This document shows, in pieces, positions 15,240 to 47,793 of a DNA stretch of 47,794 nucleotides. Both the position numbers and the translations under genes were made by a program. Position 1 is the first letter of the stretch. Every line of letters starts with the position of its first letter. The stretch is from Desulfobacteraceae bacterium (GTDB lineage: Bacteria > Desulfobacterota > DSM-4660 > Desulfatiglandales > Desulfatiglandaceae), in NCBI GenBank assembly GCA_030613055.1, contig JAUWMR010000031.1, forward strand, positions 1 through 47,794, read 5' to 3'. Under the pieces are notes generated by a model. It was not told the DNA's origin. It saw nothing but the letters and a program-made list of their open reading frames with translations, and did not search any database.

Positions 15240-16759
15240 TATCAGACACTTTGCCGAACCTGATTCTGGGTTTTGCCACGGCTTTCACGCCCGGGAATTT
15301 GCTCTGGGCCATTTTGGGTTGTTTCATAGGCACGATGGTAGGCGTTTTGCCTGGGATCGGCCCACTGGCCGGGATCAGTCTGCTTTTGCCGCTAACCTTC
15401 GGCCTCAACCCTACGAGCGGGCTAATACTTTTGTGCAGTGTGTATTACGGGGCGATGTACGGGGGGTCGACCACATCCATCCTGATGAGAATCCCCGGTG
15501 AGTCGGCATCGGTGATCACCTGCATTGAAGGATATCAGATGGCGCAAAAAGGCAGGGCGGGTCCCGCACTTGCCATTTGTGCTATTGGTTCTTATATAGC
15601 GGGAACAGTCGCAGTCCTCGGCCTCATGTTCGTGGCGCCGCCCTTGGCCAGGTTAGCCCTGCGTTTTGGACCCCCGGAGTATTTCTCCCTGCTGGTTCTG
15701 GGTCTGATGCTCCTTGGGTACATGAGCGGCGGGTCGGTTCCGAAAAACCTGTCAATGATCGCATTGGGCCTGCTTTTTGGGATGGTCGGCATCGACGTCA
15801 TCACCGGGTATTTCCGTTTTATCTACGGAGTGGTGGCCCTGGGAGACGGGCTTTCCATCGTGCCCGTGGCCGTAGGTCTTTTCGGACTTTCCGAAATCAT
15901 GGCCACTGCCGGGGATCCTGACAGACCGGACGCAATAAAGCCCCGCCTAAAGGACCTGGTTCCGTCCAAGCATGAACTCAAAGTCTCCGCGGCCCCTATC
16001 GCAAGGGGGACCATCCTGGGTTTTTTAATCGGGATTATTCCCGGATCGGCCCATATCATTTCCACCTTTATTTCCTATGCCCTGGAACGGAGATTGTCCA
16101 AATATCCCGAGCGGTTTGGGACAGGGGTAATTGAAGGCGTGGCAGGGCCTGAGTCCGCCAACAACGCAGCCAGTACCGGAGCACTAGTTCCCATGCTTGC
16201 CCTCGGTGTGCCCACCGGCCCGATTCCGGCGGTGCTGCTGGCCGCCCTGATGGTGCACGGGGTCACTCCCGGCCCGCTCCTGATCACGGAGAACCCGGTC
16301 ACCTTCTGGGGGTTGATCGCGAGCATGTATCTGGGCAATTTCGTGCTTCTCTTACTCAACCTTCCGATGGTGGGTATCTTTGTAAATTTTTTGAGGATCC
16401 CCTATAAGTATCTTTACCCGACCATCTTGATGCTGTGCATAGTGGGCGTCTATGCCGTGAATTACAGCGTGGTTGATTTGGGGATCATGGTGGTCATGGG
16501 TGTTCTGGGATATTTGATGCGGAAGTTCGAATTCGAGGCCGCTCCGGCTGTTTTGGGGGTTGTACTTGCCCCGATCATGGAACTGAGCCTTCGGCAGGCA
16601 CTGGCTATGTCGGACGGGAGCTACGGCATTTTTATAAGCAGGCCCATTTCCGTCACTTTTTTAGCTGCGACCGCCATTTTGCTCTTACTGGCTGTCCTTC
16701 CGTTGTTCAAGAAGGTCGCGTGGCGGGAAAAGCTGACAAAAGCGGAGAAAGAAGGGTAG
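15236..16759 (+). CDS. tctA: Tripartite tricarboxylate transporter, large permease TctA
   Basis: 507 residues with about twelve membrane helices, the normal size for TctA. Characteristic segments are MVGVLPGIGPLAGISLLLPL, the tight stretch YYGAMYGGSTTSILMRIPGE, and the mirrored later motif GPESANNAASTGALVPMLAL. It couples ion gradients to uptake of a carboxylate delivered by TctC. The TTG start at 15236 is preceded by GGGAGG and overlaps the tctB stop. The matching TctC-type binding protein lies 5 kb away on the other strand (21614-22594). Confidence 0.95.
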   Translation: MISDTLPNLILGFATAFTPGNLLWAILGCFIGTMVGVLPGIGPLAGISLLLPLTFGLNPTSGLILLCSVYYGAMYGGSTTSILMRIPGESASVITCIEGYQMAQKGRAGPALAICAIGSYIAGTVAVLGLMFVAPPLARLALRFGPPEYFSLLVLGLMLLGYMSGGSVPKNLSMIALGLLFGMVGIDVITGYFRFIYGVVALGDGLSIVPVAVGLFGLSEIMATAGDPDRPDAIKPRLKDLVPSKHELKVSAAPIARGTILGFLIGIIPGSAHIISTFISYALERRLSKYPERFGTGVIEGVAGPESANNAASTGALVPMLALGVPTGPIPAVLLAALMVHGVTPGPLLITENPVTFWGLIASMYLGNFVLLLLNLPMVGIFVNFLRIPYKYLYPTILMLCIVGVYAVNYSVVDLGIMVVMGVLGYLMRKFEFEAAPAVLGVVLAPIMELSLRQALAMSDGSYGIFISRPISVTFLAATAILLLLAVLPLFKKVAWREKLTKAEKEG

Positions 16760-44975: not shown

Positions 44976-45606
44976 AATGATCCTCCTTTTCAATTCTATC
45001 ACCGAGAATTATCCCGCGCATGTTCTCATTTGTGCAAGTCAATAAAAATACAGTATCTTAGACCCTAAAACCCGTCAAGAAATTTAAGTGCCCCAGTTTT
45101 TGATGGTCCTGTAAAAAGTCCAATTCCATGTTTCTGATTCCCATAATAAATTGAAATTACTACATGCAAATTCTACTTTATTGCGTGTTTTGCGCCTTTT
45201 TGCGGCTATATCAATTTTTGATTTCAGCACTGAAAGAAATTCAATCAAAAATCTTGATCCGGTTCACCGTCATGCTAATGGCCACGAATGCTCCTTCTAC
45301 CATTTCTCACTGGATTATATTGACGCCGATTGTTTCGTTAATTTTAGACCCTCTTTTTTTGTTGATATTTCCTTGAATTTACTTTTAAATAACCCATTCT
45401 TTCCAAAATTATTCGATTCTCACTCATAATGTAATGATATTGAGTAAATTGCCTGTTTTTGTTGAGAAGATTATTGCTTTTTGGCACTTAATCGACATTG
45501 AGCCCCGTAGATAAACGGAAAATCATATAATTACTTGTTGGGCACAAGGCACAAATGCGATATCGCCTAAAAGAATAGCGCTCTTCAAGGTACAGGAGGG
45601 TCAGGA
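44976..45606. other. AT-rich intergenic region left of the cassette
   Basis: Contains a fragment of the interspersed repeat (about 45110-45127) and otherwise AT-rich sequence. Frames at 45151-45429 and 45164-45376 have no ribosome binding site and no family resemblance. No integrase gene is present. The boundary of the cassette is at 45537. Confidence 0.5.
45537..45543 (+). other. Integron core site (R' box) at the left end of the cassette
   Basis: GTTGGGC fits GTTRRRY exactly. It is the perfect reverse complement of the R'' box GCCCAAC at 46408-46414, as expected if both belong to the same cassette's attC in its circular form. The sequence to the left shows no attC hairpin. Confidence 0.7.
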
Positions 45607-46468
45607 ATGGCAAAGAAGGGTTACAACCGACCACCAATCGAAATTCGCAGCTTCACGGTCGAGGAAATCGAATTTGGTATAAGGAAGCTTGCCAGACGAA
45701 AGGCGGAAGTTGAAGGCCTTAACCCTAACGATGTTAGACACGGCGATCCGCAGATCAGAAATATCGAGTCAAATATTAGAAACACCGTACGTGAGGTATT
45801 TGGAGAAAACTCACCGGAATTCCACGAACACGGGCACTTGACTATTTGGCGCGGTGGGTTTGCCTTCAATGAACCAGAACATGTCTTGCAAAGGAAGTTT
45901 GCCGAAGGAATACCACAAACAGTCGTGATTCTTGACGGCCTTATCGCCCGGCTTGAAGAGAAGAGAGAAGACCTCGGCGGAGTTGTCCCAAATCAGGATT
46001 CAGACGAATCCATCTGGGGCGACATTCACCCGAAGATCGTATCGGTGGTGAAAACGCGATTTGAAACGGAGCATTATGCTGACGCCGTCGAATCCGCCTT
46101 GAAAGAAGTTAATTCTGTTGTGAAAGACATCGTCCGAAGAAAGACGGGCAACGAACTCGATGGAGCAAACCTAATGCGAACGGCGTTTTCACCCAACAAT
46201 CCCATCATCGTTCTGGATGATCTGTCAACCGAAACCGGGAGAAACATTCAGCAAGGGTATATGGAAATATTTGCTGGAGCAATGATTGGCATCAGAAACC
46301 CAAAGGCACACGACAACATAACCATAACCGAGATCAGGGCTAAGCACTTCATCTATCTGGCGAGCCTCTTAATGCACAAAATTGATGAAAGAATCTGAAG
46401 AAGTACTGCCCAACGAGCCGTTCCACCGGATCGGCGGGAAAGGGCCCCGCCTCCCGGTGAACTTTGTG
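45538..46468 (+). mobile_element. Integron gene cassette (931 bp)
   Basis: From the cut point G^TTGGGC at 45537/45538 to G^TTAGTC at 46468/46469. It contains a single gene on the plus strand, with the attC starting nine bases after the stop, the standard compact cassette layout. No intI is in the window, so it is a lone cassette, part of an integrase-less array, or at a secondary site. Confidence 0.75.
45607..46398 (+). CDS. TIGR02391 (Ymh)-family protein carried on the cassette
   Basis: 263 residues; CAGGAGGG precedes the ATG. The C-terminal ~130 residues match the Hypoth_Ymh/TIGR02391 domain: LMRTAFSPNNPIIVLDDLS, then GYMEIFAGAMIGIRNPKAHD, and FIYLASLLMHKIDE. The R-N-P-K-A-H segment fits the R-x4-H motif of HEPN-type RNases, but family membership in HEPN is my inference. 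The N-terminal ~100 residues (IEIRSFTVEEIEFGIRKLAR...) are unassigned. TIGR02391 proteins have no settled function and are often found near restriction or phage-defence genes. Confidence 0.8.
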   Translation: MAKKGYNRPPIEIRSFTVEEIEFGIRKLARRKAEVEGLNPNDVRHGDPQIRNIESNIRNTVREVFGENSPEFHEHGHLTIWRGGFAFNEPEHVLQRKFAEGIPQTVVILDGLIARLEEKREDLGGVVPNQDSDESIWGDIHPKIVSVVKTRFETEHYADAVESALKEVNSVVKDIVRRKTGNELDGANLMRTAFSPNNPIIVLDDLSTETGRNIQQGYMEIFAGAMIGIRNPKAHDNITITEIRAKHFIYLASLLMHKIDERI

Positions 46469-46474
46469 TTAGTC
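46408..46474 (+). other. attC recombination site (59-base-element type)
   Basis: R'' GCCCAAC (46408-46414), 5-base spacer, L'' GTTCCACC (46420-46427), a GC-rich imperfect stem and loop, L' GGTGAAC (46456-46462), 5-base spacer TTTGT, R' GTTAGTC (46468-46474). L'' has exactly one base more than L', which leaves the single extrahelical base characteristic of attC. R' here deviates by one base from GTTRRRY, as expected when it belongs to the next DNA. Confidence 0.8.
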
Positions 46475-46482
46475 GGCAATTG

Positions 46483-47793
46483 GTACGATCTCATATCATC
46501 GTTTACACTAATGTCACATCATCGTTTACACTTTTAAGTTATGATTTCCTCCAAACAAAAGGAGGGGGTTATGGCTTGGATAGAGACGACGAAGATGGAA
46601 CAGAAAATAGAGTTTATTAACGAATGGCGGTCAGGGAATTACTCGATATCTGAGCTGTGTCGGCAATTCGACATTTCTAGACCTACTGCTTACAAGTATA
46701 TCAAAAGATACCATGCAGAAGGCATTGAAGGTCTGGAAGAAAGAAGCAGAAACCATCTAACCCATCCGGCAAAGATACCTTCTACTATTGAAGTCAGAAT
46801 TATCTTTCACAGGAAACAACATCCTCGATGGGGTGGAAAGAAGATATGGAAATATCTACATAAAGAATTCAGAGAAGAAGTTCCATCGATCAGTACTGTT
46901 AACAGGGTAATAAAACGTAATGGACTAGTCATCCCCAAAAAGAGAAGGAGAAGGGTTAAGCCACTCAACCCAATTTTCGATCCGAAGAAATGTAATGAAG
47001 TCTGGAGTGCTGATTTTAAGGGGAAATTCAAATTAGGCAATAAGAGGTATTGCCACCCCCTTACAATAGCGGATTCATACAGCCGATTTGTATTTTCAGC
47101 CAAAGGGTTATATGGTGAAAAGTTCAAGCCGACAATACTCGAATTTCGTCGAGTTTTCAGGGAATTTGGTTTACCATTACAAATACATACGGATAATGGT
47201 GGCCCGTTTGGCGCTGTACAGGCAGTGAAACGACTTACCAGGCTTGCTGTTTGGTTTATAGAACTCGGGATAGAGCCTGTTTATTCAGACCCCGCAAGTC
47301 CGCAGCAAAATGGGCGGCATGAGCGAATGCATCGGGATCTTAAAGGTGATGCCACAAGGCCACCCGGATACAACTTGAGAACACAGCAGCGTAAACTGAA
47401 TAAATTTGTTAATGAATACAATTATGAAAGGCCTCACGAGGCACTTGATCTAGAAACGCCAGGATCAATCCATGAATATTCTCCCAGGCCTTTCAAAGAA
47501 AAAATAGAAGAATGGGTGTATCCTGCTGATTGCGAGGTCAGGAGGGTAACGAAAAATGGTGCTCTCCGTTGGAAATCGACTCAGTGGGTCATGGTCTCAA
47601 CGAGCCTGATTGATAAACACGTAGGATTAGAGGAATTAGGAGACGGTATCTGGCGAATCTATTTCAGACAAAAATTGTTAGGTTATTTCGATGAAAGTAA
47701 CCGCAGAATAATGGATGAGATAGGTCGCTTAAAGAGAAACTGCATGTAAACGATGATGTGATACAAACTGTAAATCATGATGTGAACTGAACA
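46483..47793 (+). mobile_element. IS481-like insertion sequence with doubled terminal repeats
   Basis: A transposase gene flanked by inverted ends. Inner repeats TGTCACATCATCGTTTACA (46512-46530) and its complement at 47745-47763 match at 18 of 19 positions. A second, weaker copy lies outside each: CATATCATCGTTTACA at 46492 and the complement of CACATCATGATTTACA near the right end, with a 23-24 bp period. Outer limits are approximate; the right end is close to the window edge, and a target duplication could not be seen. Confidence 0.75.
46571..47749 (+). CDS. IS481-family transposase (DDE type)
   Basis: 392 residues from the ATG at 46571, which has AAAGGAGGGGG upstream (the frame is open from 46541). 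An N-terminal helix-turn-helix (SISELCRQFDISRPTAYKYI) precedes the retroviral-integrase-like core. The triad is likely D in VWSADFKGKFK, D in IHTDNGGPFG, and E in QQNGRHERMHRDLK. A C-terminal domain (about 300-392) follows. The gene is intact, so the element may still move. Confidence 0.9.
   Translation: MAWIETTKMEQKIEFINEWRSGNYSISELCRQFDISRPTAYKYIKRYHAEGIEGLEERSRNHLTHPAKIPSTIEVRIIFHRKQHPRWGGKKIWKYLHKEFREEVPSISTVNRVIKRNGLVIPKKRRRRVKPLNPIFDPKKCNEVWSADFKGKFKLGNKRYCHPLTIADSYSRFVFSAKGLYGEKFKPTILEFRRVFREFGLPLQIHTDNGGPFGAVQAVKRLTRLAVWFIELGIEPVYSDPASPQQNGRHERMHRDLKGDATRPPGYNLRTQQRKLNKFVNEYNYERPHEALDLETPGSIHEYSPRPFKEKIEEWVYPADCEVRRVTKNGALRWKSTQWVMVSTSLIDKHVGLEELGDGIWRIYFRQKLLGYFDESNRRIMDEIGRLKRNCM

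Follow-up and report, generated by a model that had tools for sequence, protein, structure and literature searches.

The locus at the right-hand end of the window is best explained as a relic (pseudo-)integron, made up of an intI fragment, an attI site, one cassette and a second cassette interrupted by an insertion sequence (IS), a reading to which we give a probability of roughly 0.88. The window is the whole stretch of DNA analysed here (47,794 nt) and corresponds to the entire contig C37 of a Desulfobacteraceae draft genome (4.26 Mb in 97 contigs, 95.6% complete, with 4% contamination), for which genome-wide results were obtained from individually fetched stretches and model searches. The assignment to a relic chromosomal integron follows from the attI bordering the cassette and the decayed intI fragment lying just upstream on the expected strand (Table 1); intI is truncated and both attI and cassettes are kept, as in degraded (pseudo-)integrons. 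No family was matched in an Rfam scan of the window.

Table 1. Features of the relic integron locus and its surroundings (positions in the window)
Feature	Position	Strand	Basis
Dispersed ~120-bp repeat between usp and intI fragment	45099-45221		94-95% copies on C5, C30, C35
Decayed intI fragment, N-terminal extension region (profile positions ~73-134), with in-frame stops	45318-45491	-	IntI profile; DNA similarity to G002
attI: 28-nt leader ...CATATAATTACTT and core G^TTGGGC	45509-45543	+	Likeness to C86 attI; attI profile
Integrated gene cassette (TTGGGC ... G of R')	45538-46468	+	Boundaries read directly
Cassette gene, TIGR02391/Hypoth_Ymh, 263 aa, C-terminal HEPN-like domain with RNPKAH	45607-46398	+	Pfam, TIGR02391, PADLOC, alignment
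attC (R'' S'' L'' ... L' S' R')	46408-46474	+	Read directly; covariance model R3
Start of next cassette or original right side of site, TTAGTCGGCAATT	46469-46481	+	Direct reading
IS481-like insertion sequence, transposase ORF 46541-47749	46482-47792	+	Second copy elsewhere in genome; AATT duplication shared with C77

The original prediction had described a lone gene cassette with an attC, and the boxes, the spacers, the extra L'' base and the gene all lie where it placed them. Beginning nine bases after the cassette ORF, the attC comprises R'' GCCCAAC, spacer GAGCC, L'' GTTCCACCGG, L' CCGGTGAAC, spacer TTTGT and R' GTTAGTC. R'' is exactly complementary to the left box GTTGGGC (45537-45543), L'' exceeds L' by one base, and each spacer measures 5 nt; the locus holds a cassette consisting of a gene and an attC whose R'' complements its own left box. 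R'' and R' pair at 5 of 7 positions, as expected given that R' belongs to the next cassette. A leave-one-out covariance model (R3), built from eight other attC sites from the same genome and its relatives, recovered the site at 19 bits and a modest E-value of 0.024, with no other match in the window up to E=10, and when included in covariance-model training the site ranks second in the whole 4.26-Mb genome. The E-values of this model and of a further attC model (R2) depend on length normalisation, since loops and spacers had been cut to a uniform length (MAFFT was unable to align by structure). Across the nine attC sites on which the attC models rest, the inner stem was paired in 94% of cells, seven of its eight pairs varied on both sides, and this covariation was lost when pairing partners were slid. 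The bottom strand folds only modestly better than shuffled sequence (z -2.2), and the exact pattern YGCCCAAC...GTTRGNC was found genome-wide at the window site and at one chance-like match only. The window site is a real attC.

One proposed origin of the cassette was insertion next to ackA/usp into a secondary G^TT site; this is unsupported because the left flank is itself an attI and has remains of intI upstream. Over the 28-nt leader that precedes the crossover (between 45537 and 45538), 22 positions are identical to the intI-linked attI of contig C86, against 18/28 for the next best place in the window, and longer similarity (~80-98 bp) links the leader to attI-like leaders in the relatives G025 and G019. 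A 36-bp profile trained solely on seven intI-linked attIs from seven integrons matched the window attI at E=0.087 in 401 kb and also recovered the other orphan sites, with no match up to E=5 in shuffled sequence. The window locus thus has an attI with a G^TT crossover at the point where cassettes start. Judged from these sequence comparisons, the left boundary is a true attI rather than a secondary G^TT site. No sigma-70-like promoter was detected on the plus strand of the attI leader, and a Pc promoter there is not supported.

The absence of intI, as originally stated, holds for an intact gene in the window, and no functional intI adjoins the cassette, but a decayed fragment precedes the attI and an intact copy lies on C86. 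A profile of 15 IntI N-termini matched the minus strand of the window at E=2.9e-6 (hmmsearch), compared with E=3.3 for the best of 300 shuffles in six frames; the core of the fragment, LSAKKQ*SSQQKQAIYSISLHYE, lies at ~45423-45491, and the first ~70 codons and the entire catalytic part are absent. At the DNA level, positions 45334-45492 share 65% identity over 159 bp with a decayed intI that adjoins an attI-like site in the relative G002 and translates, with stops, to an IntI N-terminus. C86 and intact relatives have the same order and orientation (leftward intI, attI, rightward cassette), and truncated intI is likewise found upstream of attI-like sites in G025, G002, G051 and G003. The fragment is short, the E-value of its profile match is moderate, and its region is similar to a stretch of G037 that precedes an unrelated gene and is itself weakly intI-like (E=2.5e-5).

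Further upstream, the dispersed repeat beside usp has related copies in many relatives. The relative G019 (95% identical, with the usp flank in common) loses synteny at position 45088, ~450 bp before the cassette, and therefore no clean empty site was seen; neither an empty nor an ancestral version of the exact locus was found among the relatives examined. A test for an island between orthologues (usp on C37 and a response regulator on C87) gave no support for a simple island, as C87 runs on into unrelated chromosomal genes.

The cassette protein matched Pfam PF09509 (E=8e-30, 103.6 bits against a cut-off of 25) and TIGR02391 (E=1.6e-25, 89.6 bits against 39.45), and in PADLOC it matched PD-Lambda-3_B and Aga_HEPN, the latter being the HEPN part of a short-Argonaute system. 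R-x4-H is the signature of HEPN RNases, and RNPKAH conforms to the R-x4-6-H form of this motif; within the C-terminal IRNPKAH, the residues R, N, P, A and H are invariant across four aligned relatives (RNPxAH). Based on these family and motif matches, the gene most likely encodes a HEPN-type RNase of abortive-infection-like defence. All relatives of the protein are distant: those borne on plasmids are distant TIGR02391 proteins, none of which covers 80% of the query, and a search of viral contigs found none.

To the right of the attC, the last four bases of 46469-46481 (AATT) form the target duplication of the IS481-like element. This element occurs twice in the genome, its copies being divided among four contigs, and the assembly breaks at the window copy. 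Four-base target duplications pair C37 with C77 (AATT) and C59 with C24 (AAGG). Beyond the IS, C77 (L019) carries a small gene, as well as a further weak attI-like site that was found by similarity. On the minus strand of C77, at ~15470-15810 and after the gene following the IS, there is also a ~340-bp MITE-like element with inverted ends GGGGTC(A/G)(A/G)GCCACGCTAACT. The original prediction had suggested looking, in this region and beyond 47.8 kb, for intI and further attC sites; an intact intI was found on C86, whereas the search of the C77 continuation with model R2 returned no attC, and the rest of the array is therefore degenerate or different. With one attC in the window and none on C77 by this model, the locus has fewer than the two or more attC sites without integrase that define a CALIN. 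The suggestion of an integrase-less array is supported in a refined form, namely as an integron with decayed intI whose attI is followed by a first cassette and then by a next one that starts at 46469 and is cut by the IS.

We propose that a chromosomal integron ancestrally lay here, its intI facing left and, past the attI, its cassettes facing right, and that it has since decayed. The sequence shows the outcome: intI is reduced to an N-terminal fragment of ~170 bp, the attI survives together with the first cassette and that cassette's attC, and the second cassette is split by the IS. Bottom-strand attC x attI recombination by IntI at G^TT is the established integron mechanism, and the cassette was presumably placed in this way. 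It would no longer be self-mobile, and the intact C86 IntI could in principle act in trans on the attI and attC of the window.

A single full-length integron integrase was detected in the genome with NCBIfam TIGR02249. It lies on C86 (362 bits against a cut-off of 265, with no stops), which has the layout of an ordinary integron: intI is followed by a divergent attI with crossover ACTTG^TTGGGC and three cassettes parted by two attC sites, up to the contig end. Beyond C86 and the window, a model of five attI leaders that includes the window's (R1), on which whole-genome attI counts depend, found sites on C49, C4, C66, C10, C85, C61 (two, in series) and C76, and weakly on C23 and others. Approximately 9-10 attI-like sites lie away from the single intact intI, and at least five of them are followed by cassettes with matching attC boxes, although several sites were judged by eye. 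These include a cassette with a model-supported attC on C76, and cassettes on C66, C10 and C61 whose R'' matches the left box by eye. The orphan site on C49 (L114, G000:C49; 2300-4200) precedes LmuA-like, LmuC-like and SMC-like genes forming a Lamassu-like unit, for which no attC was seen. The leaders on C49 and C66 have 88-152 bp in common with that of C86 (91-95% identity over 99-152 bp) and no intI coding sequence. Searching the other attI-like sites of this genome with the IntI N-terminal profile detected no intI remnants, with the exception that C76 and C85 show 31-bp similarity to the 3' end of intI of relatives. The sites on C85, C61 and C76 (L118, L119, L122, L140) are double: the stretch with the crossover is preceded, ~55 bp upstream, by a further attI-like stretch that ends in ACTTTTCTG.

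The simplest account of the orphan sites is the repeated gain or duplication of integrons and their decay, with attI and first cassettes outlasting intI. Another account, which we consider doubtful, is a dispersed integron, in which the sole intact C86 IntI acts in trans on ~10 scattered attI sites, each having one or a few cassettes (several of them defence-like) behind a conserved leader and no long array. At the window locus itself, this idea would translate into a dispersed attI-cassette unit whose leader was copied with a cassette or ready for one, and the ten or so sites away from intI, several with cassettes and matching attC boxes, together with the near-copies of the C86 leader on C49 and C66 and the serial sites on C61, are in its favour. 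Nonetheless, the intI remnant in the window indicates that intI was lost at this very locus, neither a transposition mechanism nor a shared outer boundary was detected, and the leaders fall into several families, some common to intI-linked attIs of other genera, as several decayed integrons predict; we therefore consider a copied unit highly improbable here.

The remnant bears equally on whether there was ever an integron at this position. Placement of a lone cassette by IntI next to usp, at a non-classical (attG) site in the genome, would fit a window with one intact cassette, no functional intI adjoining it and an intact IntI elsewhere in the genome. However, an attG target is unlike attI or attC, whereas the flank here matches attI, through its likeness to the C86 attI and to the G025 and G019 leaders, and is no minimal G^TT; with decayed intI behind it, an attG origin is quite improbable. 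Even less credible, to the point of being practically inconceivable, is a chance hairpin with boxes beside an ordinary gene. Structures as short and as good as the attC did occur 18 times in 200 shuffled windows (~0.09 per window), but only once with a matching left box 0.2-1.5 kb upstream (~0.005 per window), in agreement with the original claim that attC and left box together are unlikely by chance, and the coincidence of that box with the leave-one-out model, the attI leader and the intI fragment already refutes this explanation.

Decayed integrons are already well known; what is unusual here is the genome, in which about ten attI-like sites lie apart from the single intact intI. In a 2008 survey (Nemergut et al. 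2008, PMC2426708), about a third of intI genes were pseudogenes and ~20% of hosts carried several intI genes, and the same progressive loss of intI is described for Xanthomonas integrons (PMC12444791). As in the pseudo-integrons of these two studies, intI is inactivated or truncated and attI and cassettes persist, but in the window only a short intI fragment remains, the array consists of one intact and one IS-split cassette, and the genome has ~10 attI-like sites to one intact intI. The locus resembles CALINs, which are regarded as degraded integrons (IntegronFinder, including single-attC loci; PMC9024848), in having an attC cassette without a neighbouring functional integrase, yet differs from the default of at least two attC sites and in keeping a recognisable attI and intI fragment. 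Insertions at attG sites (Loot et al. 2024), as they are summarised in PMC12444791 and PMC12901181, similarly place a chromosomal cassette away from a working integron, but at a divergent genomic site instead of an attI. In delta-attI-type cassettes (PMC12901181), attI pieces also occur away from intI, including inside arrays (compare C61 and C77); these are mostly 14-18 nt of attI located downstream of a gene in place of attC, whereas the window attI is longer, upstream of its cassette, and adjoins an intI fragment. Partial coverage of the literature yielded no report of orphan attI sites or of ~10 attI sites with one intI per genome. The locus illustrates that a "lone cassette" far from an integrase can be what is left of an integron, as opposed to a random insertion, and that scanning for attI leaders, beyond intI and attC, recovers such loci. 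Should the single intact IntI still use the many orphan attI sites of this genome, the usual model of one integrase, one attI and one array would have to be extended to a dispersed version.

Both intI decay and N-terminally extended IntI have precedent in the pseudogenes of the 2008 survey and in an IntI clade ~120 aa longer than usual (PMC2426708), to which the extended C86-type IntI possibly belongs. The intact C86 IntI (L009, 2666-4168) has 500 aa with an N-terminal extension of ~150 aa, in which the motif HYxKWLRYYLDFCxKY...QxQAxxA is conserved in about a dozen genera (C86 and relatives L049-L063). The closest named contigs with an IntI like that of C86 are from Deltaproteobacteria bacterium UBA3076 (L021, L024), where two intI copies share ~86-90% identity with the C86 gene; one of them has an internal deletion of ~459 bp that keeps the frame, and the other is truncated after ~159 codons.
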